Shown: positions 8,750-22,710 of the stretch, in pieces
Position numbering within the stretch: the first letter of the stretch is position 1
Layout of the letters: the number at the start of each line of letters is the position of its first letter
From: an uncultured Alphaproteobacteria bacterium
Lineage (GTDB): Bacteria; Pseudomonadota; Alphaproteobacteria; Rhodobacterales; Rhodobacteraceae
Direction of reading: 5' to 3'
Assembly (NCBI GenBank): GCA_902556405.1
Contig: CACDWF010000003.1
Location: 62,001-126,000, forward strand
Length of the DNA stretch: 64,000 nucleotides
Program-made: the position numbers and the translations under genes
The notes under the pieces: model-generated
Database searches by the model: none
Told to the model about the DNA's origin: nothing
The model's input: only the letters and a program-made list of their open reading frames with translations

Positions 8750-8804
8750 TGGTGGAGGGGATAGGATTCGAACCTATGTAGGGTTTCCCCGACGGAGTTA
8801 CAGT
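8750..8804. repeat. Distal att repeat (displaced 3' fragment of tRNA-Tyr)
   Basis: tggtggaggggataggattcgaacctatgtagggtttccccgacggagttacagt, identical to 22625-22679. Confidence 0.95.
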
Positions 8805-8957
8805 TCGACCGAGAAAACACAAAAATCAATGAAAACAATGGGTTAGACGATTATTTTTGGTTGTGTGTAACTTTTGTGTGTATAAGTTCCAAACCTCTAT
8901 ATGACCTCCTACGGATTATTCCGTCTGTAGAATAATCTACGGAATCCAATATTGAAA

Positions 8958-8994
8958 GAAAAAAGGGAGATTTCGGCAGACATTGAAACCTCCC
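8958..8994 (-). terminator. Rho-independent-like terminator on minus strand
   Basis: Minus strand GGGAGGTTTC-aatgtctgcc-GAAATCTCCC followed by TTTTTT. Confidence 0.5.
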
Positions 8995-9535
8995 TGTTGA
9001 AAGGAAAAAATATGAAAAAACTAAAAGTCATATTTTACTCTTACCGATAGAAACGACAGGAGTGAGTTTTCTATTAGGGAAGTTCAACCAAAGACCACCA
9101 GACTTTCATGGGGTATACATTTTTTTCTGGGATACTTATTGCATTTATAGATTGCAAAAGTTTGTGAGATATTGACGGGGATACTCTACGAGGTCTGGTA
9201 AGGAAAATGACTTGATCTCGTTTCCTACCAGTCCTGTATATAGATATAGCAGAATAAGTTTAGATTGCAAGTCGCCCTAATCTCCCACTTCTCATTCCAC
9301 CATTCCTTAATACCGATGAAACTATGAAGGGTAGGGATTAATAGAACTATTCCTTGAATAATAGATAAGTCCAGAAAGTTTTTTAGACTCTCCAGGAGAT
9401 ATGATTAGTAAAGTTGCAAACCAGGAACTGATTATAGATAAAGTAAAGAAAGTCTGGAAACATTAGACTATTATAATAACACTCAATATTATATTTTTTA
9501 TTAATAAATTAGATAATGGCGAAAAAGAGGAATTT

Positions 9536-9865
9536 ATGGGAACTAATCCAAAGTTAATTAATTTTACTACACAAGATTTTATGTCAGAAAAAGAGTTAGA
9601 ACTTGCAAATTTAAGGTGGGATAAAGTAAAGGCGTCTTACTATAAAAGATTAAAAGAATTAGGATTATTGCGCATTGTAAGTTTAAGAATTTGGAACAAA
9701 GAAAATGTAGCAAGATTAGGTTTTGTTTTTGAATATAAAGATGAAAAAGCATTTAAGGCGTGTCTTCCTGTTTGGAAAGAAGTTGATGCAATGGAAAGTG
9801 AAGACATGGTCATTAAGACTTTCACTAATAGAGGTATAGTTCTTGAAGATACTATTTTAGGTTAA
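9536..9865 (+). CDS. Small hypothetical protein (possible alpha/beta-barrel type)
   Basis: 109 aa intact ORF MGTNPKLINFTTQDFMSEKELELANLRW... Confidence 0.65.
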   Translation: MGTNPKLINFTTQDFMSEKELELANLRWDKVKASYYKRLKELGLLRIVSLRIWNKENVARLGFVFEYKDEKAFKACLPVWKEVDAMESEDMVIKTFTNRGIVLEDTILG

Positions 9866-10025
9866 AAATTTACTGGAAAGAAAAATAAAAATGAATAAAT
9901 GCTTTATATGTTAATACCCCAAAGAAAATAAATGAATGAGTAGATTTGCTGATGCTGGTAATCATTTTGAAAGTCTCGACAAAGTGACTGGGAAGAATTA
10001 AAGAATAATTTGTAAAGGAAAATGA

Positions 10026-10427
10026 ATGAATAACTCAACTGAAACGATGGTTAAATATTACGATGCTATTTCAAATGCCGACCTACAAACCATTTGTGAA
10101 TGTTTTGATATACCTTCAAAGTTAATCTCACTTTATGGTGTTGTTGATATGTTTAGTAAAGAGGAAATAATCGAAGCATATTCAAGCATTATTGAAACAT
10201 GGAAATCACAAAATATTTCCAACAAAATTGGATATGACAGAAACTCGTTTGATGTTTCTTCCATTCAGGAGAATATTGACTTAGTGAAAACGAGACTTAC
10301 TAATTTCGATCTAGATGGCAACTTTCTTCTAGAATGGGATTGTTCGTACATAGTAAGAAAGGAAGATCATCGTTGGTTGATCTCTGCAGGAACTACAAAT
10401 AATAAAACATCTACGAGTATGAAATGA
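10026..10427 (+). CDS. SnoaL/NTF2-like small protein
   Basis: MNNSTETMVKYYDAISNADLQTICECFD...; pattern typical of NTF2-like/DUF4440 proteins; followed by terminator. Confidence 0.65.
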   Translation: MNNSTETMVKYYDAISNADLQTICECFDIPSKLISLYGVVDMFSKEEIIEAYSSIIETWKSQNISNKIGYDRNSFDVSSIQENIDLVKTRLTNFDLDGNFLLEWDCSYIVRKEDHRWLISAGTTNNKTSTSMK

Positions 10428-10460
10428 GGGTTAGGTTTGTAACATTTCTAACCCTTTTTT
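10428..10460 (+). terminator. Rho-independent terminator
   Basis: GGGTTAG-gtttgtaacattt-CTAACCC-TTTTTT immediately after ORF 10026-10427. Confidence 0.75.
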
Positions 10461-10487
10461 ATTTTCTGTCGTTTTTAATAGGTGAGC

Positions 10488-10514
10488 AAATATGAGTTTT
10501 ATTTCATATTTTTT
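10488..10514 (+). terminator. Hairpin plus T-run (terminator-like)
   Basis: AAATATGA-gttttatt-TCATATTT followed by a T-run. Confidence 0.4.
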
Positions 10515-10521
10515 CCTTCAC

Positions 10522-10562
10522 TGGGAGAACTCTAAAGTCTGCAAGAATTCTCCCATTTTTTC
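10522..10562 (+). terminator. Rho-independent terminator
   Basis: TGGGAGAA...TTCTCCCA followed by TTTTTT. Confidence 0.65.
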
Positions 10563-10941
10563 ATCCAAATAATAAATTAATGAGAAACATAGTTGGCGGG
10601 TTTTCCAAAATACCTAAAGGGTATCCAACAATCATTAATGCCCACGCAGATAAAAAGATAAGAGTGAAAGTTTTAGTCATCAGAAATTTTCAAGAACCCG
10701 CATTTTCATTTTTCTTTTTCATCAATAAATACATTCTTTGAAGATTTATTGATATCGATAGTAAAAGAGCGAGTGCTGTAATTTCAAAATAAATACTCAT
10801 AATATACCTTTCCGTAAAATTGAGTTTTTTCATATTCTCTTAAAAATATAATGTTACCTAAATTTGATCAAAGAGGTAAAGAGACTGTTTTTAAATGGGG
10901 AAATATTGAAGGTTTGAATGAGATAGTGTACGTCTGTTTTT

Positions 10942-11217
10942 ATGAACAAAAAAATTTTTACAAGTAGTTGGTTTGTTTTTATATGTATAATCCTGTTTTG
11001 GATTTTTCTTCTTCAAAACTACATTTTTGATTACCCTTATCGTCTTAGAGATATTGTCGGTAACTGGGTTTCTTTCTTTGTTATTTTAATATATCTCTGG
11101 GGAATATTTGTAGGCGTAACGAGATACTCAAATACGGGAACGGGTATATTTGTCTATGTTAATTTAATCCCTTTAATTGTATTATTAGTAATTCAGTACA
11201 CCTTAAAAAACTTCTAA
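10942..11217 (+). CDS. Small membrane protein (about three predicted TM helices)
   Basis: 91 aa hydrophobic ORF. Confidence 0.55.
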   Translation: MNKKIFTSSWFVFICIILFWIFLLQNYIFDYPYRLRDIVGNWVSFFVILIYLWGIFVGVTRYSNTGTGIFVYVNLIPLIVLLVIQYTLKNF

Positions 11218-11310
11218 TTAAAAAAATATATTCTCAAAACAGTTAAAACGTATATGAGAAGTTAGAAAGAAACGACCCGTTTAAGTAGTTAGATTCAAGT
11301 TTGAAGGAGT

Positions 11311-11601
11311 TTAATAACCTTCGATTATAACAAAATATCCTTCAGAATTATCCTTGCGAATATCTATAATTTTTGCATATTCCTCCGAATTATAAAATGC
11401 ATTTGCTCTTTCGGTACTTTCAAACTCAACGACCACATTACGATTACCGCTTGGATTGCCCTCTTTTACGTCTTGTTCTCCTCCCCTAACCAAATATTTT
11501 CCTCCAAACTTCTTTATAATTTGTTCAGTACTAGAAGCATATGCCTTATAATTATCAGCATTTGTAATGGTTATTTGCCCTATAATATATCCCTTTTTCA
11601 T
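11311..11601 (-). CDS. DUF1330 family protein (ferredoxin-like alpha/beta barrel)
   Basis: KGYIIGQITITNADNYKAYASSTEQIIKKFGGKYLVRGG...VVVEFESTERANAFYNSEEY, DUF1330 signature pattern. Confidence 0.82.
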   Translation of the reverse strand: MKKGYIIGQITITNADNYKAYASSTEQIIKKFGGKYLVRGGEQDVKEGNPSGNRNVVVEFESTERANAFYNSEEYAKIIDIRKDNSEGYFVIIEGY

Positions 11602-11663
11602 ATATCTCTTCTCCTTTTAGTGAATATAATTGCACTTAAAATTTTAGTTTTATTTTTGAACTT

Positions 11664-11850
11664 AATCAATGAACAACAAAGGATACCTCTCCGTAAGTGG
11701 AAAGAAGTTCAAAGGTAATCATGTTCATTCAATTGTGAAGAAGAAAAGACAGAAAGATTAGAAGTTAGAAAGAGAGTATCCAGAGGTATGGTCTGATTTT
11801 AGTTTGGAGGTGGTGGATAAGACTTTGGTTAATATGTTTGAGGATTTTTA
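11664..11850 (+). repeat. Decayed copy 1 of ~200-bp coding repeat (internal deletion and in-frame stop)
   Basis: Translates NNKGYLSVSGKKFKGNHVHSIVKKKRQKD*KLEREYPEVWSDFSLEVVDKTLVNMF; shared with 13002-13204 and 14681-14899. Confidence 0.85.
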
Positions 11851-11913
11851 AAATTTGACCAACTTCTAGTAAATAATTACATTCATTTCTTATAAAAATA
11901 TTCTAGGGTTCTT

Positions 11914-12537
11914 ATGTTAACTGTATATGGAAGAAAATCTTCTGCGAATGTTCAAAAGGTTCGTTGGATTTGTAGTGAAGGTAATTTGGAGTTCAAAACG
12001 GAAATCGTTGGAGGGAAGTATGGTGGATTGACCTCTCCAGAATTTATAAGGTTGAACCCCAATAGCACTATTCCAGTTTTAAAAGATGGTGACTTTATAC
12101 TTTATGAATCCAATTCAATTATAAAATACATATCTGATAAGTTTGGTATTCTGAAATCTGATAACCCAAAAAAAACAGCATTAAACAACCAATGGATTGA
12201 TTGGTCGAGTTTCGTTTTTGGATTAAACTGCTCAATTTACACAGCACATAATATATTGCTTCCTGTAGAACAAAGAAATCCTAATTTAGTATCTGAAGCA
12301 AAAAAGAAGATCTATTCATGCTTCGAATTATTAAATAAGCAGTTAGAAAAAACTAATTATCTACTTGATAATGAACTTAGTTTAGCAGACATCCCGGTAG
12401 GTTGCTGGATACATAGATGTGTAGTTTTGGGTTTAGTCATTACAGAGTTTAAATCGTTAGAAAAGTTGTATGTTAATTTGAAAGAAAGAAGCGCTTTTAG
12501 AACTGAAGTATTCGATACACCCTTACCCCCAGAGTAA
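11914..12537 (+). CDS. Glutathione S-transferase family protein
   Basis: MLTVYGRKSSANVQKVRWICSEGNLEFKTEIV...LNPNSTIPVLKDGDFILYESNSIIKYI, GST N-domain. Confidence 0.88.
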   Translation: MLTVYGRKSSANVQKVRWICSEGNLEFKTEIVGGKYGGLTSPEFIRLNPNSTIPVLKDGDFILYESNSIIKYISDKFGILKSDNPKKTALNNQWIDWSSFVFGLNCSIYTAHNILLPVEQRNPNLVSEAKKKIYSCFELLNKQLEKTNYLLDNELSLADIPVGCWIHRCVVLGLVITEFKSLEKLYVNLKERSAFRTEVFDTPLPPE

Positions 12538-12627
12538 CATAAACTCTTTTTGAGCAAGTCCGCTTTTAATAATCTTTTATTGTTTTTAACTATAGTCTCT
12601 GAAGCATCAATCAGTTTAAAAGTTTTT

Positions 12628-12932
12628 TTATCCCAACAACCTTCCTTTCAAAAAATTTACAAGAACATCACCGCTCAAGGGATTTATTTCTTTGACTATT
12701 CCACTTAGGTAAGTTGATGTTCTAGCATTTCTAAGTTTGTCTGCATTTTGCCTATCTTCTTCTGTCGGATATACCGATATACCGATATACCGATAGCGGA
12801 GGTTTCTCCTGTTCTAACAAAAAGCGAAACATCATTATTAGGATGCGATCCAATATCTTTATACCAAGAAGCAAATTCTTCTACGGATTCCGCAGTTTGA
12901 AACTCAAACATAGTTACATTAGCGACGCTCAA
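12628..12932 (-). pseudogene. Small ABM-like protein frameshifted by an 8-bp tandem repeat (possibly phase-variable)
   Basis: Track ORF 12705-12932 leaves the family-like frame at (ataccgat)x3; removing one 8-bp unit gives a continuous 98-aa ORF ...TSAIGISVYPTEEDRQNADKLRNARTSTYLSGIVKEINPLSGDVLVNFLKGRLLG* ending at 12628. Confidence 0.75.
12771..12794. repeat. 8-bp tandem repeat (ataccgat)x3
   Basis: Direct reading: ggat ataccgat ataccgat ataccgat agcgg. Confidence 0.97.
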
Positions 12933-13001
12933 TTATTATCCTTCTCTAGGTCTATTGGTCAGAATTGCTTCATTTAATAATACCAATTCTTTCTCTATCA
13001 G

Positions 13002-13204
13002 ACAATCATTGAACAAAGAGACAAAGGTAAGACCCTTGACCGAATCGCAGAATGGTTAAACAAGAAAGGTTACCTATCTGTTCGTGGAAAGAAGTTTAAA
13101 GGAAATCATGTACATTCAATTGTGAAGAAGAAAAGACTGAAAGATGAGAAGTTAGAAAAAGAATATCTAGAGGTATTGTCTGATTTTAGTTTGAAAGCGG
13201 AATA
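13002..13204 (+). repeat. Copy 2 of ~200-bp coding repeat (open frame, no obvious start)
   Basis: Translates TIIEQRDKGKTLDRIAEWLNKKGYLSVRGKKFKGNHVHSIVKKKRLKDEKLEKEYLEVLSDFSLKAE*. Confidence 0.88.
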
Positions 13205-13205
13205 A

Positions 13206-13442
13206 TTAATTTCTTTTATAGTGTGCTACAACGTGACCATTTTGCCATTCTACTATTCCATCAAATGATTTTATAAAGTCATTCCATGTATTTTTTCCAT
13301 CATCTCGCGATTTCAAAAAATCTGTTTCAGAAGAATAAATGCCAATACCCGATATTTTACCCTCTCCCGTCTCAATAATCCTAATCTTGTAAACCAATGT
13401 TAATATTATCTTTTTAAGAAGTTTGAAACTTCTTTGAAACAT
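13206..13442 (-). CDS. Small hypothetical protein, possibly related to the 12628-12932 family
   Basis: ISGIGIYSSETDFLKSRDDGKNTWNDFIKSFDGIVEWQNGHVVAHY resembles AIGISVYPTEEDRQNADKLRNARTSTYLSGIVKEINPLSGDVLVNF. Confidence 0.55.
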   Translation of the reverse strand: MFQRSFKLLKKIILTLVYKIRIIETGEGKISGIGIYSSETDFLKSRDDGKNTWNDFIKSFDGIVEWQNGHVVAHYKRN

Positions 13443-13496
13443 ATTTATGAAAATCTATTCTTAAACCTCTTCTACCTACCATGTAAATTTCAATTT

Positions 13497-13862
13497 TTAA
13501 CATATCATGCAATGGTCAATAAGAATTTTTTCATTTTTTTCTAAGAATATTGCCTGGTTCATTAGTTCGTCATTTGATGTAGAAATATATTGTTTCCAAA
13601 TGACACCAATTGAACTTTGTCTCCTAAAAAGATATATAAATTTTCTTTCAACAAACAAAGCACGAGGTTCTTTTGATAACTGCAATTTTAGATTTTCAGG
13701 CGTTACAATTTTTCTCATTCTTTCAGTGAAATCTCTAGTATGCTTAGCATGATTATCTTCATTAGAACCATTGAGGCAGTTGTCCATTATAGGTTCTACA
13801 ATCCCTAAGATTTCGTTTTTCTCCATTTCAATAAATTTCATTATTAACCTTTTAACACTCAC
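13497..13862 (-). CDS. Hypothetical protein
   Basis: 121 aa intact ORF within the minus-strand cargo run. Confidence 0.5.
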   Translation of the reverse strand: MSVKRLIMKFIEMEKNEILGIVEPIMDNCLNGSNEDNHAKHTRDFTERMRKIVTPENLKLQLSKEPRALFVERKFIYLFRRQSSIGVIWKQYISTSNDELMNQAIFLEKNEKILIDHCMIC

Positions 13863-13911
13863 AAAATATTCTTATACATTATTTAATTATTGATTTTATT
13901 AACTTTTTTAT

Positions 13912-14052
13912 TCACTCCCATTCAACGATAATTTGTTCGGTATTTAATTCTTCTTTATCCACTTTTGGAGACCAAAAAGTTTTGGACATTGCTACGAATG
14001 CGTCCGCCTTTTCTTGCGAAGGAAACTTGATCGATGCAGTCCTTATATACAT
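13912..14052 (-). CDS. Very small ABM-like protein or fragment (46 aa; not in ORF track)
   Basis: Minus-strand ATG at 14052: MYIRTASIKFPSQEKADAFVAMSKTFWSPKVDKEELNTEQIIVEWE*. Confidence 0.45.
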   Translation of the reverse strand: MYIRTASIKFPSQEKADAFVAMSKTFWSPKVDKEELNTEQIIVEWE

Positions 14053-14163
14053 TTCCTGTCCCAGTTTTACTTTATAAAGACTAAATCATTCACTATTTTT
14101 CTTTTGCTTTCAATTACTTTAATACGACAAATCCTTGGATTTTTATTCTTTTCTTTTTTTCAA

Positions 14164-14649
14164 TCAATAACCTAAAAGAGAGAACCCAATCGCTAAAAAT
14201 ATACCTACAACTACATGACTAGAAGTAGACAGTAATTTAGTGAGAGTTGGATTTGGCGTTTTATTTCCCATAAAACCTTTTCCGGTTACAGGAAGATAAA
14301 AAAACCAAGGAATGCTTACTGATATTATTCCAAAAGTTAATCCAGATAAAATTGAAGTAGATAAAATATTAAAATCTACCATAAGAAAATAATAAGCAAA
14401 CCCGTAACCTATAGCGACACAGTAGTGAAACGCCCATCCAATTGCCAATTCATATTTTACTGGATTTTCATTATCTAAATTCTTATTAAATACTATTTGG
14501 TTCCTAAGAAACATTACAAACCATCTGCCTGCAGATGACCAGTTAGTAGGAGGGATATTAAATGCCAAAAATAGAATTCTTTGCCATATGTCCATAGCAA
14601 GGCAACAGATAATTCCTGCAATTATTGGGTCAAATATGAGGTGTCCCAT
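14164..14649 (-). CDS. DUF2938-like membrane protein
   Basis: Multi-TM; AMDIWQRILFLAFNIPPTNWSSAGRWFVMF... AIGWAFHYCVAIGYGFAYY typical of DUF2938. Confidence 0.7.
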   Translation of the reverse strand: MGHLIFDPIIAGIICCLAMDIWQRILFLAFNIPPTNWSSAGRWFVMFLRNQIVFNKNLDNENPVKYELAIGWAFHYCVAIGYGFAYYFLMVDFNILSTSILSGLTFGIISVSIPWFFYLPVTGKGFMGNKTPNPTLTKLLSTSSHVVVGIFLAIGFSLLGY

Positions 14650-14680
14650 AAATTTATAATATCAGTTTTTTCTACATGAA

Positions 14681-14899
14681 ACAATCAATGAACAAAGAGA
14701 GAAAGGAAAGACCTTTGACCAAATCGCCGTGTGGTTAAATAGGAAAGAATACCTATCCGTTCGCGGAAAGAAGTTCAAAGGTAATCATGTTCATTCAATT
14801 GTTAAGAAGAAAAGACTGAAAGATAAGAAGTTAGAGAAAGAATACCCTGAGGTTTGGTCTGATTTTAGTTTGGAGGTGGTGGATAAAACTTTGGTTAAT
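14681..14899 (+). repeat. Copy 3 of ~200-bp coding repeat
   Basis: Translates TINEQREKGKTFDQIAVWLNRKEYLSVRGKKFKGNHVHSIVKKKRLKDKKLEKEYPEVWSDFSLEVVDKTLVNN. Confidence 0.88.
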
Positions 14900-14903
14900 A
14901 ATC

Positions 14904-15266
14904 TCAATAACAGAGGACGCTATCCGATTTAATTGACTCTTCAACAAGTTTATCAGGCATGGCAAACTCTGCTTTATATCCATCAAGAAGTGTCTCATCG
15001 TAACCGCGTGCCTTAGCGGACATTCCTGAGACAAATATGGTTGCATTTGTATTCTTTAAACTTTCCAAATGTTCATATAAATCTCCAGTACCCTGACCTA
15101 CTATTTCACCAGCACTTTTGCAATTTAGAATGTGAACGCCGTCTGCCGCGAGAAAAAGAGTTACTTCGTGCCCACTTTTTTCTGCGGCAAGAGCAACCAT
15201 TAAACCTAATGTTACTTTATTTTTGAATTCCAAATCGCTATGTATATGAACGAGTACTTTAGACAT
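14904..15266 (-). CDS. DsrE family protein
   Basis: MSKVLVHIHSDLEFKNKVTLGLMVALAAEKSGHEVTLFLAADGVHIL... DsrE/F-like pattern. Confidence 0.8.
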   Translation of the reverse strand: MSKVLVHIHSDLEFKNKVTLGLMVALAAEKSGHEVTLFLAADGVHILNCKSAGEIVGQGTGDLYEHLESLKNTNATIFVSGMSAKARGYDETLLDGYKAEFAMPDKLVEESIKSDSVLCY

Positions 15267-15324
15267 TTATTTCTCCTTAAAATTTATTTATAAAATTATA
15301 GTGCTTTTTGAAACTGAGGTTCCA

Positions 15325-15975
15325 CTACACTAAAAACTCATTAATTCCATCTAAAACATATTGTACACTCAATCCCGCCAAAATAATCGCAATAATACTT
15401 GAGAATACACTTATTAATTTTTCATTAACTATTTTCTCAAATCTTGAAACTATAAAAAAGGCAACAAAGGTAATGACCATTACAAGAAGTAATGAGGAAA
15501 TTCCAATGATTTGGTTGATATAATTACCACCAATATTGCTTACAGAAACTACTACTGAAATTATGGCAGCAGGTCCCGCTAATAAGGGAATCGCAAGTGG
15601 GAATACACTTATATTATCAGAGTCAAAATTAGCATCTTTCTTCTTCCGTTCTCTTCTCTTGTTAAATAGCATTTCTAAGGAGACTAAAAACAGGATAATA
15701 CCGCCTGCTATTTTTAGAGCAGGAAAAGTTATACTCAAATGATTAAAAATGTAATTACCTAAAACAGCAAAAAATATTAGAACCAAAAATGCTATTATAG
15801 TTGAGTTGAACGCGGTTTTAACTTTTCCATTTAAATTTAAGTTCTTCGTGACTACAAAAAAGATAGGCGCACTTCCTATGGGGTCAATAACAACGAAGTA
15901 TAAAACAAAAGATTGAATGAATATTTGTACCATAGCAAGACCGACTGAAACTTTCTTATTATGAATGTAAAACAA
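15325..15975 (-). CDS. MarC family (UPF0056) membrane protein
   Basis: FVLYFVVIDPIGSAPIFFVVTKN...FPLAIPLLAGPAAIISVVV. Confidence 0.9.
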   Translation of the reverse strand: MFYIHNKKVSVGLAMVQIFIQSFVLYFVVIDPIGSAPIFFVVTKNLNLNGKVKTAFNSTIIAFLVLIFFAVLGNYIFNHLSITFPALKIAGGIILFLVSLEMLFNKRRERKKKDANFDSDNISVFPLAIPLLAGPAAIISVVVSVSNIGGNYINQIIGISSLLLVMVITFVAFFIVSRFEKIVNEKLISVFSSIIAIILAGLSVQYVLDGINEFLV

Positions 15976-16073
15976 TTGAAAATTTGCGAAATTCTTTATT
16001 AAAATTTCTAAAAATTTGGTTACGTATTATCAAACAAAAACTCTGAAATAAAGAGATTTTTAACTAAAAAAAA

Positions 16074-16159
16074 TATCAGAAACGCACCCCTACAGAAACA
16101 CTTACCCTATCACTCTGTAGGGTCAAAAAAACCCAATAAAATCAATGATTTATTCTACA
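16074..16159. repeat. 86-bp direct repeat, left copy (contains CCCTACAGA...TCTGTAGGG inverted repeat)
   Basis: About 80/86 matches to 18714-18799 by eye. Confidence 0.92.
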
Positions 16160-16383
16160 GTATCCCACTAGGTTTCCTATAAACTAACCACCTAGTGCAA
16201 CTACCTGTCTCATATTGAAATTCTATATTTTCAATAGGTTAGCACAAGCACCCTGGACTTGTTGCCAATTATATCCCATTTCCTGTTTATAACTTTTCTT
16301 TACAAAGACCAATAACTCTGTCTCATTCCTCTTCTGTTTTAAGGTTCTAGGCACCGTTTAAAAATTGTTAACTTAGTCTTCCT

Positions 16384-16677
16384 TCAATTCATAAAGTTGC
16401 AAAATTTTTCTATTTTGCCATCTAAAACCATTTGGTCGTGAATATCAAACCTATTCAACTCCCTCCATTCAATTGCACTTTCGATTAACTTTTTAGCATT
16501 TTCCTCATTATCAATCATTGCAAACGTTAACAGAGAATCTGGGGTTAGTCGACAGATGTAGAATGTTTGAAGTCCGGTACCTTCAAGCGACTCCATAAAA
16601 GGTTTATATCTTTCAATATAGTTGTCACAGTCATCCTCAGTCTTGAAGTTAACAACAACGTTTCTAAAAACACTCAT
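16384..16677 (-). CDS. Small protein, tandem paralog A
   Basis: MSVFRNVVVNFKTEDDCDNYIERYKPFMESLEGTGLQTFYICRLTPDSLLTF...; aligns full length to 16720-17013. Confidence 0.8.
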   Translation of the reverse strand: MSVFRNVVVNFKTEDDCDNYIERYKPFMESLEGTGLQTFYICRLTPDSLLTFAMIDNEENAKKLIESAIEWRELNRFDIHDQMVLDGKIEKFCNFMN

Positions 16678-16719
16678 TCAAAATCTCCCATAGTTTCTCT
16701 TTTTCACTTACAGGTGTAT

Positions 16720-17013
16720 TTAATTTCTAAGATTATAATAACCCTCTAATTTCCCATCCAAAACCATTGAGTCTGTGATTTCAAATTTATTCTCTTCTCT
16801 CCAATTATCTGCAAATTCAATAATCTTTTTCCCATTTTCTTCCGTATCAATTGTACAAAAAGTTAGTAACGAGGTATCTGACAATCGGCATATAAAAAAG
16901 TCTTCCAACCCAATTCCTGTTTGTGTTGGTACGAGTTCTTGGTACTTTTCCAAATATTCCTCAACATCGTCCTTGTTTTTAAAATTTAGAACCACGTTTC
17001 TAAAGATACTCAT
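16720..17013 (-). CDS. Small protein, tandem paralog B
   Basis: MSIFRNVVLNFKNKDDVEEYLEKYQELVPTQTGIGLEDFFICRLSDTSLLTF...; same 97-aa length as paralog A. Confidence 0.8.
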   Translation of the reverse strand: MSIFRNVVLNFKNKDDVEEYLEKYQELVPTQTGIGLEDFFICRLSDTSLLTFCTIDTEENGKKIIEFADNWREENKFEITDSMVLDGKLEGYYNLRN

Positions 17014-17052
17014 TTTGTTTCTCCGTTATTTAAATACACTTAAATTTAAAAT

Positions 17053-17421
17053 TTAATTTACCGCTACACCCTCTTTAAAAAGTTGTTCACTTCCAATAGT
17101 ACCATCTGGTTTGTAGGTTATCCATATACCATCACGTTTTCCATTCTTGGAGTTACCTTTTAAATATAAACTTCCATCCTCATAAAAGGTTTCTGTAAGA
17201 CCATTCATGATACCTCGTTTATAGGTCATATTGAGATAGGGTTGACCATCTTCATAAAAATACTTCCAAACTCCTTCCATCAATCCATTCTCATATTGTC
17301 CAGAGTGTTGGAGATTTCCATTATCGTAATGTGTTTCAGATTTGCCGGTATAAAGTTCGTTTGTACCCTCAACATATTCCAACTCACCATCCATGTTTAT
17401 TTCTACATCTTCAGACTTCAT
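17053..17421 (-). CDS. MORN-repeat-variant / YwqK-like protein
   Basis: Repeats: YDNGNLQHSGQYENGLMEGVWKYFYEDGQPYLNMTYKRGIMNGLTETFYEDGSLYLKGNSKNGKRDGIW. Confidence 0.85.
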   Translation of the reverse strand: MKSEDVEINMDGELEYVEGTNELYTGKSETHYDNGNLQHSGQYENGLMEGVWKYFYEDGQPYLNMTYKRGIMNGLTETFYEDGSLYLKGNSKNGKRDGIWITYKPDGTIGSEQLFKEGVAVN

Positions 17422-17933
17422 ACTCTAATAACCAACTTTCTAAAAACGAAAATTAATATTCCTAAAACAAATAATCCAGTACACAAATCATGCAGAGTTC
17501 CGACAGATATTACTTTGTGTAAACTATTGTAATCTGAAAAAGGAAAAAATGGAGACATATCTCTATGCATTATACTATCCAGAATTAACTGAGAATATGC
17601 ACCTATCAATGCACCAGACCAAGCAGCAAATTTTTGAATCGTTATTTCTGTTCTAAACCAACTGAACTTTTCCATTCTTAAAGTTTTATTCCATACTCTC
17701 AGTCCAAACTCACAAATGGGTTTACAAAACATCCCAACAAATATTCCGATAAAAGTAACACCAAAAAAAGTGTGAAAAAATTTATGCGATGGTATTCCAG
17801 TCATAAACAAATAGTAGAGTACTTCTGAGTCTATTATGACGTTTGTTAATGCGAACGTAGAAAAACTAAAATAATGAGGTGAGACTGATTTGGCAGATGT
17901 TCCGGCAATTAAATGAAAAGTCGTGAAGGGCAT
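17418..17933 (-). CDS. Membrane protein (putative metal-dependent-hydrolase-like/DUF4184-like)
   Basis: MPFTTFHLIAGTSAKSVSPHYFSFSTFALTNVIIDSEVLYY..., multi-TM with conserved-looking His/Asp. Confidence 0.55.
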   Translation of the reverse strand: MPFTTFHLIAGTSAKSVSPHYFSFSTFALTNVIIDSEVLYYLFMTGIPSHKFFHTFFGVTFIGIFVGMFCKPICEFGLRVWNKTLRMEKFSWFRTEITIQKFAAWSGALIGAYSQLILDSIMHRDMSPFFPFSDYNSLHKVISVGTLHDLCTGLFVLGILIFVFRKLVIRV

Positions 17934-18703
17934 TATAATTTTTGCTGTTTAAGTTTGTCTCTTAAAATACTTCTTAATGTACTTTCTGGGCGCTGGAAGA
18001 ACTCAACCAATTCATCCATTTGCGTACCTTCATCAAATTTTTCGTTTACGAGACTTACCTCTTCCATAGTTAGTGGCATGTGATAATTTAGTTTCTTACC
18101 TCTCTCCCTGTTATCATTCCGTACTTGATTTGGTTCTATCACAAAATCACACTTTTTTGGGGTCACTAAAGTAATAGTTTCGCATTCTTCAAAACAAAAG
18201 TATTGGACTCCAATATCAGGTCTTTTAGTTTTTACAATAATGTTTTCATTGGTGGGTTTTACTGTCAGATCAACTCTTGAGTTTACACCTGCGTTCGGAG
18301 TGTGGAGCAATTTAGTAAGTTTTTCTTCTGTATCCTCTTCAGTTTCCAATTCAAAAGTGGTTTTTCCATCAACATGATTGTCTGCAAGAAAATAAGTTCC
18401 TTTATATTCTATTGCTGCATTTGTTAATTTTGCCCCCGACATGGAAAATAATTCAATCCAAAATATTTCTCTAGTAAATGCTCTTTTATCAGAATCAATA
18501 TCTTTCTCTAGAAGCACAATGTCTATAGAACCTTTCCCAGATTCATTTACTTCCTTTATATATCTTTGCTTCGGACTTGTTCCTTCCCAATCCTCTAAGT
18601 GCTCTTGAAGTCGCCTATTAATATCTTTTTTTGTCTTTCCCACATAAAAAACCTCACTACTTCTAGAATCCACCAAACCATATATTTTTGTTTTACTTAC
18701 CAT
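17933..18703 (-). CDS. GIY-YIG nuclease domain protein with C-terminal HTH-like region
   Basis: KIYGLVDSRSSEVFYVGKTKKDINRRLQEH (GIY-YIG) ... C-terminal MEEVSLVNEKFDEGTQMDELVEFFQRPESTLRSILRDKL. Confidence 0.8.
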   Translation of the reverse strand: MVSKTKIYGLVDSRSSEVFYVGKTKKDINRRLQEHLEDWEGTSPKQRYIKEVNESGKGSIDIVLLEKDIDSDKRAFTREIFWIELFSMSGAKLTNAAIEYKGTYFLADNHVDGKTTFELETEEDTEEKLTKLLHTPNAGVNSRVDLTVKPTNENIIVKTKRPDIGVQYFCFEECETITLVTPKKCDFVIEPNQVRNDNRERGKKLNYHMPLTMEEVSLVNEKFDEGTQMDELVEFFQRPESTLRSILRDKLKQQKL

Positions 18704-18713
18704 TACCCAATTA

Positions 18714-18799
18714 TATCAGAAACGTACCCCTACAGAAACACTTACCCTATCACTCTGATGGGTCAAAAAAACCCAATAAAATTAATTACTTATTCTACA
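18714..18799. repeat. 86-bp direct repeat, right copy
   Basis: Matches 16074-16159 with about 6 mismatches. Confidence 0.92.
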
Positions 18800-18840
18800 T
18801 TAACAGGTGTTTCTAAACTTCTGGATTGGTTGCATCTTCA

Positions 18841-19032
18841 TTATGCAGTCATTCCCTCTAATGAGTTCCTGTATTTTCGTTGTTGAGAAATCTTTTGGAG
18901 TTTGTCTGCAATAACCATTCTTACTCCCTCGTTGATAAGACTATTGGCAGATCGTTTATCAAGTTCTTGGATTCTTTTTAGGTCATTCCAAACTTCATCT
19001 TGGACTCTCAAAGGGTAGTTATGTGTTTTCAT
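18841..19032 (-). CDS. Arc/CopG-like ribbon-helix-helix regulator (small)
   Basis: MKTHNYPLRVQDEVWNDLKRIQELDKRSANSLINEGVRMVIADKLQ, RHH-like pattern. Confidence 0.65.
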   Translation of the reverse strand: MKTHNYPLRVQDEVWNDLKRIQELDKRSANSLINEGVRMVIADKLQKISQQRKYRNSLEGMTA

Positions 19033-19262
19033 TATCTCTTCTTCTTTCTATTCTTGGATAGGGACTCTCTAATCAAACTGAATCTTGTTTTCCGTAATCC
19101 AGTATGTCTTAATCTCTTTTTACCTAACTGTTCATATAAGAAATCTAATGTCAGTTCTGGTTTGAGAGATTCACCATATTCATAGTAAATCTCAGCACCT
19201 CTAATCTCATCATCAATAGGTGTTTGTTTTTCAGTGTCTGTTATATCAGTTTTATATCTCAT
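19032..19262 (-). CDS. Hypothetical small basic protein
   Basis: 76 aa; stop/start overlap with the RHH ORF suggests an operon. Confidence 0.55.
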   Translation of the reverse strand: MRYKTDITDTEKQTPIDDEIRGAEIYYEYGESLKPELTLDFLYEQLGKKRLRHTGLRKTRFSLIRESLSKNRKKKR

Positions 19263-19451
19263 AGTGGGTTAGCAGTCCTTATCTAGTGTCTGATAATATT
19301 ATTTAGGTCTTCTTTATACTCTATTCATTCTTATCTCTCTTTTTTCCATAGTAATACTATTGGAGTAGGTTTCCCCACTCCATCTGTATTGTTTCTACTT
19401 CAGCAGTCAGTATTGTCTGGGAGAGTATCTCCACAACCTTGAAGTTTGATT

Positions 19452-19916
19452 TTAGAGAGTCCTATGGCAGTTCATAAAATCTACTTCTGCATTTGTATTT
19501 TTAGGAAATAGTTGTTTGGTGTTGTATCCGTCCAACCCTTTCCTGTCATAGACATTTGAGTCCGTATCTAACGAAACTCCGTCTTTTGTTTTCAACCAAC
19601 TTTGTTCCAGTTTTTTTAAATATCTTGCAGTTGATAGATGTTCTGGTGTTTCTACAAGACTATGAGAGTGAAACCCACCAGTTTTTCCACCTCGTTCAAT
19701 CACAACATATCTTGGTATTTTCTTCTTGGATTTTTTATAGACCTGTCGGTGGATTTCATTGAAAAAATGTTTGTGGTTTTTCTTCATTCTCTCTTTTGTT
19801 TTTTCTCCATCACCAAACTTCACATAATCATTGAAACCCAGAGTTAGATAAATGGGTCTGGTAATAGCAAACCCATTCAACCAAAGTTTATTATCATTTT
19901 TATTAGTATGTTTCAT
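19452..19916 (-). CDS. Putative HUH-type (rolling-circle) Rep endonuclease
   Basis: Motif I-like IYLTLGF; motif II-like YVVIERGGKTGGFHSHSLVE (HxH); motif III-like VYDRKGLDGYNTKQL (YxxK). Confidence 0.55.
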   Translation of the reverse strand: MKHTNKNDNKLWLNGFAITRPIYLTLGFNDYVKFGDGEKTKERMKKNHKHFFNEIHRQVYKKSKKKIPRYVVIERGGKTGGFHSHSLVETPEHLSTARYLKKLEQSWLKTKDGVSLDTDSNVYDRKGLDGYNTKQLFPKNTNAEVDFMNCHRTL

Positions 19917-19973
19917 AATGATATTATTTATACAAATAGAATTCTCTAAAATGAGGAGGACTCTATTTTTTTA

Positions 19974-20333
19974 TCAAACCACTTTCATATTCTCTTCTAT
20001 GAAATCAACCCTGTAATGGTCTTGGGTTCGTTTCAACAAGTCATCTTCATGTGGAACTGAGTTGTAATATGATGACGTGCATGGACTCCACATTACTAAA
20101 CCATATTTTCGTTTTAGAAAGTTATAGATACCACCATCTATTTCTGGGTGAGAAATGAACCTCCTAACTTTCATTTGCAAATCGAGGACGATTGGTTTTT
20201 TTACACGGTCCTGTTCTGATTTTGCATTTTTCTTTTTTAAATAAACTCTTACTCTTTTATTGACTATCCTAAACGCGCTATAATCATTCTTGCAGTCTCG
20301 TATTGCATCTTCATACAGGTCTATAACATTCAT
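19974..20333 (-). CDS. Hypothetical protein (element replication/regulation operon)
   Basis: 119 aa intact ORF overlapping the next ORF by 1 bp. Confidence 0.55.
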   Translation of the reverse strand: MNVIDLYEDAIRDCKNDYSAFRIVNKRVRVYLKKKNAKSEQDRVKKPIVLDLQMKVRRFISHPEIDGGIYNFLKRKYGLVMWSPCTSSYYNSVPHEDDLLKRTQDHYRVDFIEENMKVV

Positions 20334-20599
20334 TACAAAACCTCCTTATCTAAATCTTTATATAAATAGGAAGTAAAGTATTCCTCTAAATCATTTGGCA
20401 TATTTTCTAACTCTGTCAATTCTGTAATGTTTTGGAGTTGGTTGTTTTCCAATCCAAACTCAAACTTTATATGAATTTCTGTGTCCATTCTGTCTACTGC
20501 ATAAACTCCTACCTTTTTGATAACTTTTGATCCTCTTGGTTTATCTTTCAAGGTATAGTTTTTCTGTGTTGGATTTAGTATTGAAGTATTATTTTCCAT
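20333..20599 (-). CDS. Hypothetical protein
   Basis: 88 aa intact ORF, first gene of the apparent minus-strand operon. Confidence 0.5.
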   Translation of the reverse strand: MENNTSILNPTQKNYTLKDKPRGSKVIKKVGVYAVDRMDTEIHIKFEFGLENNQLQNITELTELENMPNDLEEYFTSYLYKDLDKEVL

Positions 20600-21087
20600 T
20601 TCTTTTCTCCTTATCAGTCATGGGTTGTGTATTATTTATATGATTTTGATATGACCGCTGCGACCAGTGGTAAGCAGTTTGGTCGTGGTGATTTCTCACC
20701 AGCATCCGTCTATTTCTTCTTTGGATATTTTGTGGTTTGATTTTTTGATTTGTTTTAGACATTAGTTGTCCTCCGTAAAATATAGTTTATTTTTACGTTC
20801 TCCCATTTGGGAGGAACAACTCTCATTCTCGCATACCCTTTTATAGCATAGATGAGTCCTGTTTGTCAATACCAAATATGCATGAAACCCAATAAAATAA
20901 GGGGTTTTAGAGTTTTTCACTATAAAAAAATGGAGTCCAGTATTTGAAATATGGACTCCGTAAGTTTCTCATAACAAAGAGGTCATCTTTCCCCAAAAAT
21001 GACGATAAATTGCAGTATTGAAAGAACACGCAAGGAGGTAAAACGCATCCTTTTTGACATTTATTATTTAGGTATATTTTTTTGATA

Positions 21088-21333
21088 CTATTTGCGTAAA
21101 AGTTCTTGGTCTTTTCCGTCAGCGTCTTTCAATTGCGTAAGATAATCCAAGTCAGTATCCATAGTTTTGAGAAAGTTGCGTATAATCTTTTGTTCTTCCT
21201 CTTTCCATCTTTTGAGTTGTTCTGGTGAAAGTGGTTTTGTTTGTGAGTAATGTTTTATGAATTTAACAAGTTTCAAATACTGATTAGTTTCCAAACGTTT
21301 GTAGGTTTTTAACAATATCGTCATTAGGATCAA
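21088..21333 (-). CDS. Hypothetical protein overlapping the integrase 3' end
   Basis: 81 aa; overlaps integrase by 50 bp. Confidence 0.4.
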   Translation of the reverse strand: MILMTILLKTYKRLETNQYLKLVKFIKHYSQTKPLSPEQLKRWKEEEQKIIRNFLKTMDTDLDYLTQLKDADGKDQELLRK

Positions 21334-22489
21334 GGTGTCTCAAGTAAAACCTTTCAAGTTGATTGACACTTGTTCCAGCATTCTTTGCCAGGACAAAGAT
21401 ATTCACTTTCCCTTTACTCTTTATCAACCTTGTTTGGAGTGAATAATGACGCAAAGAATATAAAGAACGATTTTGTCCGTCTTTTGTTTTCTTCAACTTT
21501 GCTTCTCTCAAAATAAGATCAAAACATCTCATTGCATTATCTCTTGCAGTATTTCTATTTGGGAAATGATTGAAGAATAAAAAATCTTTCTCTATAATTT
21601 TAGGTCTTCTCATGTCTCGCAATTTTGTAAAATAATCTACTGCATTCGGCATCGTTCTTACAGACCTGTAACCTGTCTTACCCGTCACTCTTATTTCCAA
21701 ATAATCGGGGTTAGAATGAACCTCAATATCTCTGTATCTAATATTGAATACTTCACTTTTTACTGGTCGCATAAATGATGCAGTAAGAAAGACAACGAAA
21801 TAATAAAACTCATTATCTATATGCATCCCCTCTATTCGCACTTTGGAGTCCGCCATTTTTCTTATTGTATCGAGTAGGTGTTTATATTCATCATCAGTAA
21901 ATGAGGGTCTGGGATTATCTCTTTTCTCCTCGAACTTCGGCATTATGATAGGTTTGTTGATTGCGCCCTCTTCATACGCAAGTCTAAAAAGTTTTGATAA
22001 AACTGATCGGTATTTGTTTCTTGTTGATGGTGCAAGGGGAACATCTCTTCTAGAGTCCAAAAATAGAAAATAGGTTCTAATATCTTTGGTAGTTATTTTA
22101 CTAATATCTCTTCTACCGAAATATGCTCTAATACCCTCCTCTGCTCTGTTTATTAGGTTTTCATCATCTCTTGCATATCGACTACTTTTACCCTTACCAG
22201 ACTCCATCCTTTGGAGATTGATAAGTTCATCTATGTAAGTATTGCAAAGTTGTTTAGTAACTACCGATGCAAAACTTACTTTTTGATTTTTAAGACTTTC
22301 AAAAACCTCTTCTGCAACTTTTGCTGCTTCTATCCTTGATGTTTCTTTTGTCGATTTTCTGTAATATTTCTTCTCTGCACCTACCCAGATCTGTGCGAAC
22401 CAATATGGTGACCGACCAGTTTTATAGAGGGATAAACCCGTCCTAATAGGTTTCTTATCAGTTATTTGATTTACTGAACTTTGATTCAT
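21284..22489 (-). CDS. Tyrosine recombinase/integrase
   Basis: Catalytic-type C-terminus LYSLRHYSLQTRLI...AKNAGTSVNQLERFYLRH; adjacent to tRNA-Tyr. Confidence 0.93.
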   Translation of the reverse strand: MNQSSVNQITDKKPIRTGLSLYKTGRSPYWFAQIWVGAEKKYYRKSTKETSRIEAAKVAEEVFESLKNQKVSFASVVTKQLCNTYIDELINLQRMESGKGKSSRYARDDENLINRAEEGIRAYFGRRDISKITTKDIRTYFLFLDSRRDVPLAPSTRNKYRSVLSKLFRLAYEEGAINKPIIMPKFEEKRDNPRPSFTDDEYKHLLDTIRKMADSKVRIEGMHIDNEFYYFVVFLTASFMRPVKSEVFNIRYRDIEVHSNPDYLEIRVTGKTGYRSVRTMPNAVDYFTKLRDMRRPKIIEKDFLFFNHFPNRNTARDNAMRCFDLILREAKLKKTKDGQNRSLYSLRHYSLQTRLIKSKGKVNIFVLAKNAGTSVNQLERFYLRHLDPNDDIVKNLQTFGN

Positions 22490-22624
22490 TAGTTACACAC
22501 TTTCTCCGACGGATTTACTTTTAGTTTAGTGTGTAACTGTGTGTAACTCAATAGTGCTGTTTTTTGAGGGTTTTTTTGCCAGCGTCAAAATAGTGTAAGC
22601 ATCTGTATTTAATACACTATTTCG

Positions 22625-22679
22625 TGGTGGAGGGGATAGGATTCGAACCTATGTAGGGTTTCCCCGACGGAGTTACAGT
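22625..22679. repeat. tRNA-proximal att repeat (3' half of intact tRNA-Tyr)
   Basis: Identical 55 bp to 8750-8804. Confidence 0.95.
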
Positions 22680-22710
22680 CCGTTGCATTTGACCGCTCTG
22701 CCACCCCTCC
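22625..22710 (-). tRNA. tRNA-Tyr (anticodon GTA)
   Basis: GGAGGGGTGGCAGAGCGGTCAAATGCAACGGACTGTAACTCCGTCGGGGAAACCCTACATAGGTTCGAATCCTATCCCCTCCACCA; long variable arm; encoded CCA. Confidence 0.95.

Follow-up and report, generated by a model that had tools for sequence, protein, structure and literature searches.

Introduction

Small rolling-circle plasmids of the pMV158 type combine an HUH Rep (RepB) with a small ribbon-helix-helix (RHH) protein, CopG, and have repeats or hairpins near rep. Another family of replication proteins is REP_ORF2-G2P (PF23343), to which microvirus ORF2/VP4 and inovirus G2P belong. In marine bacteria, tycheposons, VEIMEs and PICMIs have been described as satellites or cargo elements (PMC11389934, PMC10872708, PMC10803314). 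HUH Reps are known, and so are tRNA elements and cargo islands of marine bacteria; little is understood of how small tRNA-bound cargo islands in streamlined marine bacteria are copied after excision. Here, one such island is described from a 64,000-nucleotide stretch of Rhodobacteraceae DNA (the whole of which is called the window). A compact HUH Rep, together with a recurring candidate nick motif before its gene, may provide a short and testable account of the copying of one group of these islands.

An integrative element in tRNA-Tyr

Judged from its gene and repeat organization, the island is an integrative mobile element inserted in tRNA-Tyr and carrying host-type cargo. It extends over 13.9 kb (8750-22679) between att direct repeats that match exactly along 55 bp. 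One att copy (22625-22679) belongs to the tRNA-Tyr (gta) gene that forms the integration site (22625-22710, minus strand), and the distal one (8750-8804, plus strand; D3 repeat family) is a partial copy corresponding to the 3' end of this tRNA. The gene of a tyrosine-recombinase integrase of 401 aa (21284-22489, minus strand; phrog_1 integrase, 5.8e-27) adjoins the tRNA, and the site is empty in related genomes: tRNA-Tyr and a kdsD-like gene are about 70 bp apart in G014 and G005. The integrase is 96-98% identical to those of two relatives at the same tRNA, and the insertion point is shared by the elements L005 and L006, in which no second att copy is recognizable. Just downstream of the int operon, at 20932-20959, there is a hairpin with a T-run after it on the int strand; for these reasons this hairpin is taken to be the int terminator.

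What the window element, L005 and L006 have in common is the integrase end, rep block and one cargo block; the genes that lie between int and rep are replaced. Among the latter are two ORFs with no assigned function, of 88 aa (20333-20599, minus strand) and 119 aa (19974-20333, minus strand). A conserved small protein of 76 aa (19032-19262, minus strand), on the other side of rep, is retained in L005 and L006. It is followed by an RHH (Arc/CopG-like) protein of 63 aa (18841-19032, minus strand; weak phrog_582 match, 0.089), a probable regulator, and RHH/CopG-like proteins occupy the equivalent position in other elements. Smaller inserts also occur between the same tRNA-Tyr att repeats: those of G003 (L075) and G007 (L074) measure 1.5 kb, and their coding content is limited to a serine resolvase and a protein of 59 aa. 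The Rep element L005 has a like resolvase/59-aa pair at its far end, and L006 likewise has the resolvase.

The cargo (9536-18703) includes genes for a GIY-YIG nuclease, DUF4184/YdjM-like, MORN, MarC, DsrE, DUF2938, GST and DUF1330 proteins, and others. The GIY-YIG domain protein (17933-18703; PF01541, 3.7e-6) has a weak PADLOC match to PD-T4-3 (0.0015) and is a possible defence gene. In a Rep element of another genus, the cargo (L021, 11088-16937) resembles a type I restriction-modification system at the level of its protein sequences. Three copies of a repeat named D1 (135-220 bp) are located at cargo gene boundaries (11672-11834, 12974-13193 and 14653-14900). This repeat reaches 14 copies per genome and is present in 16 of the 22 genomes of the genus, and it was found in no other genome searched. 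Its copies separate small cargo genes, among them those for DsrE, GST, DUF1330 and MORN proteins, whose order varies where they recur (L063-L068). Several D1 copies are inside ORFs of 97-126 aa that resemble the C-terminal part of serine recombinases, which suggests a genus-wide cassette-shuffling pool. Finally, a 90-bp repeat, 92% identical between its two window copies (16073-16162 and 18713-18802), borders cargo blocks, and occurs in L005 at 9115-9205, just past the RHH gene.

A compact, probable HUH Rep

The ORF at 19452-19916 (minus strand, 154 aa) very probably encodes an HUH endonuclease of the rolling-circle Rep type, for which nicking itself is predicted. A first-pass annotation of this DNA had pointed out the sequences IYLTLGF, GGFHSHSLVE and GYNTKQL as resembling motifs I, II (HxH) and III (YxxK), and all three are present in that order. 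In an alignment of nine members (the window protein, two close relatives and six proteins from other genera, with 21-94% identity to the window Rep), 15 columns are invariant: T25, L26, N47, H50, F51, N53, H83, H85, P91, W107, T110, Y131, K134, D146 and N149. Motif I is thus represented by T25 and L26, on a hydrophobic strand ahead of the HxH strand, the metal-binding HxH motif by H83 and H85, and the YxxK motif that comes after it by K134 and Y131, the latter predicted to be the single catalytic tyrosine. Alignments of four and five sequences place motif III less cleanly. Since coincidence of the conserved residues of homologs with the HxH and YxxK positions was the test on which the first-pass annotation had staked its reading, and this coincidence is what the homologs display, the Rep call is well supported.

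Two genomes from the genus of the window encode homologs of this protein that are 94 and 88% identical to it. Further homologs were detected in other genera of the same family, probably Rhodobacteraceae (of which at least 396 genera were sampled), by means of a profile built from the close homologs, and also on IMG/VR contigs. Every homolog scanned matches PF23343; the window Rep does so below the gathering cut-off of 27.8 bits (4.4e-5, 24.1 bits), and the homolog L023 above it (1.9e-8, 34.9 bits). In addition, the replication initiation protein family phrog_3584 matches the homologs L023, L021 and L027. When phage and plasmid proteins were searched directly with the Rep, matches were weak or lacking, two viral-contig scans queried with Rep homologs gave no matches, PDB sequence searches returned no Rep, and NCBIfam profiles showed no meaningful match.

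The AlphaFold model of the Rep has a pLDDT of 58 and a pTM of 0.60, with residues 113-144 below 50, and predicts strands at 21-27 and 82-89. The best PDB match of this low-confidence model is to the origin-binding domains of AAV Rep (E 3.7e-3); against viral models the best value is 9.6e-6, and the matches include named microvirus replication initiators. A second model, with one homolog added, did not gain in confidence, its PDB matches were weaker and AAV Rep was no longer at the top. The likeness of the predicted fold to AAV and microvirus Reps is suggestive only. Because both models are of low confidence, the Rep call was based on motif conservation and profiles; any support from the fold is inconclusive.

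Recurrence of the integrase-Rep module

The association of integrase and Rep recurs outside the genus. In four other genera, both genes are found at tRNA-Phe (L019, L020, L022 and L023), with a related integrase, and RHH/CopG-like genes accompany some of these modules. Three IMG/VR contigs (L027/L050, L051 and L052; 8.6-10.8 kb) also encode Rep relatives, accompanied by serine recombinases, an RHH-like gene and genes resembling those of DNA methyltransferases. These contigs have no terminal repeats, and no phage structural genes were found among the ORFs read; their viral label is doubtful for these reasons, in view of the serine recombinases and methyltransferases found instead, and they are probably misassigned mobile elements.

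A rejected and a candidate origin

The first-pass annotation had proposed as origin a hairpin-rich region upstream of the rep operon, whose start it had placed at 20599. The two inverted repeats are indeed there, namely CGACCA-13-TGGTCG (20661-20685) and TGGTGA-4-TCACCA (20686-20701). However, they are not upstream of the operon. A promoter-like sequence, TTGACA-18-TATAAA (20840-20869, minus strand), largely conserved in L006, precedes an ORF of 57 aa (20589-20762, minus strand) that has a strong ribosome-binding site of its own (GGAGGACAACTAATG, 20760-20774, minus strand) and would be the first gene of the operon. Both repeats fall within this ORF, which also runs into the start of the next gene. 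Its probable coding status is in line with L006, in which an 88-aa ORF starts at the corresponding codon and shares its first residues; the leader is largely conserved there, and the ribosome-binding site region is shared.

That the hairpins at 20661-20701 form the double-strand origin is favoured by the juxtaposition of two perfect inverted repeats and by the folding of 20600-20720, which is mildly better than that of shuffled sequences (z of -2.1 and -3.2 for the two strands). On the other hand, inverted repeats of 6 bp with loops of 3-20 occur at an ordinary 8.9 per kb in the window DNA, and 7.1% of random 60-bp stretches have two or more of them. The TGGTGATTTCTCACCA repeat is absent from the loci of other genomes compared, and the region 20661-20701 aligns with neither close relative, though their Reps are 88-94% identical to that of the window. 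The origin call for these hairpins fails: they sit within what is probably a small gene, relatives do not conserve them, and repeats of this kind are ordinary in the window. We regard such a function as highly improbable.

A better candidate, on sequence grounds, is the putative Rep site or origin at 19925-19967 (minus strand), directly before rep. It consists of a hairpin with arms of 8 bp (19960-19967 and 19935-19942) followed by ATAAATA (19925-19931), and the rep block shared with relatives starts next to this hairpin, at 19971-19974. The hairpin is kept in L005 and L006, and the window copy has one G-T pair. ATAAATA, which had been noticed by eye in distant homologs before any scan, is found upstream of rep in eight of ten independent homolog loci and upstream of other ORFs in 2 of 74 cases (Fisher, 4e-8). 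In one of the eight, L047, the background rate is high. The motif does not precede int (0/6) or the RHH genes (0/6). In a 7-mer scan upstream of rep it ranked first, and random stretches of the same loci share a 7-mer in at most four. It is absent before the rep homologs L024 and L035, and the window element has further copies of it. The surrounding arrangement varies: L019 and L020 have GATAAA copies spaced by 11 bp and a hairpin immediately before rep, L022 and L027 show a similar spacing, and in L036 the hairpin comes after the motif. Alternatively, ATAAATA could be the -10 box of the rep promoter or the operator of a regulator.

Proposed mechanism and alternative readings

The account that we favour, and hold to be reasonably likely as a whole, is that of a tRNA-Tyr element that copies itself after excision. 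The tyrosine integrase would excise the element as a circle, and the HUH Rep would nick one strand immediately ahead of rep, in the vicinity of ATAAATA and the hairpin next to it. The protein would become attached through Y131, and host enzymes would carry out rolling-circle copying. The RHH protein may limit rep expression, like CopG in small rolling-circle plasmids. Host-type genes would travel as cargo, and might by some route reach other cells.

Other readings start from the same genes. The first-pass annotation had spoken of an autonomously replicating satellite, a term compatible with an att-bounded, integrase-bearing Rep element but not matched by any terminase, capsid or AlpA-type gene in the scanned proteins. 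As a phage satellite, the island would be excised on phage infection, replicated by the Rep and packaged in helper particles. Its 13.9 kb, its integration in a tRNA and its pairing of an integrase with a replication gene, with structural genes lacking, agree with this, as does the presence of Rep relatives on the IMG/VR contigs. However, the lack of terminal repeats and structural genes and the recombinases and methyltransferases of those contigs tell against it; neither the scanned window proteins nor the neighbours of the homologs include a terminase, capsid-remodelling, AlpA or other hallmark gene; no packaging or helper-hijacking gene was found among the proteins scanned; and 50,697 phage records hold Rep relatives as weak matches at most. 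We consider a phage satellite rather unlikely.

It is less probable still that the HUH protein acts chiefly as a relaxase nicking an oriT, so that the island would be moved by the conjugation machinery of another element. HUH relaxases and Reps have motifs in common, and integrated elements that have a relaxase and an oriT but lack a mating apparatus form an established class (PMC11389934), with which the island shares the combination of integrase, HUH nuclease and cargo. It differs from such integrative mobilizable elements in that no window protein scanned matches a MOB-family Pfam profile, and no accessory mobilization or coupling protein was seen among the ORFs scanned. The best profile matches are instead to replication proteins (PF23343 and phrog_3584), and the order of the motifs and the YxxK fit Reps. 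The island could also be degenerate, with integrase and Rep as relics and the element kept only as a chromosomal cargo island. The lack of a recognizable second att copy in L005 and L006 is consistent with such decay, as is the situation in G003 and G007, which at this tRNA keep no more than a 1.5-kb insert between att repeats, with a resolvase in it. In the window, however, the two att copies still match along 55 bp. Neither int nor rep is disrupted, both are 88-98% identical to their relatives, and every motif residue is retained. We find degeneration an unlikely explanation.

Comparison with known systems

The combination of a minimal Rep, a tRNA integrase and a frequent RHH gene, in several genera and with a common motif, was not described in the open-licence literature searched. 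Tentatively, and with more doubt than confidence, these loci might represent an undescribed, family-wide class of Rhodobacteraceae elements, replicated after excision by a minimal HUH Rep of 155 aa under a CopG-like regulator, sharing an ATAAATA nick site and transferring cargo for host adaptation and defence, perhaps inside phage particles. The Rep plus ATAAATA could be used as a marker to find more such islands.

The element resembles tycheposons in its tRNA site, its tyrosine recombinase and its cargo, the comparison being confined to these three features; ecological cargo in marine bacteria is also common to VEIMEs and PICMIs. In contrast to these systems, the only replication gene recognized here is an HUH Rep, and satellite packaging would be hypothetical. 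The Rep is similar to the REP_ORF2-G2P family in the order of motif I, HxH and YxxK and in its profile match, and the fold predicted for it at low confidence resembles that of microvirus initiators. However, the Reps described here are short: at 149-168 aa they comprise hardly more than the nuclease domain. Most of them score under the family cut-off, and they belong to integrated, recombinase-bearing elements that lack phage structural genes. Finally, pMV158-type plasmids are similar in the association of an HUH Rep with an RHH protein and in the repeats or hairpins by rep, whereas the element described here uses a tyrosine integrase to insert into tRNA genes, has a Rep of a different family and, in most loci read, carries its RHH gene downstream of rep.
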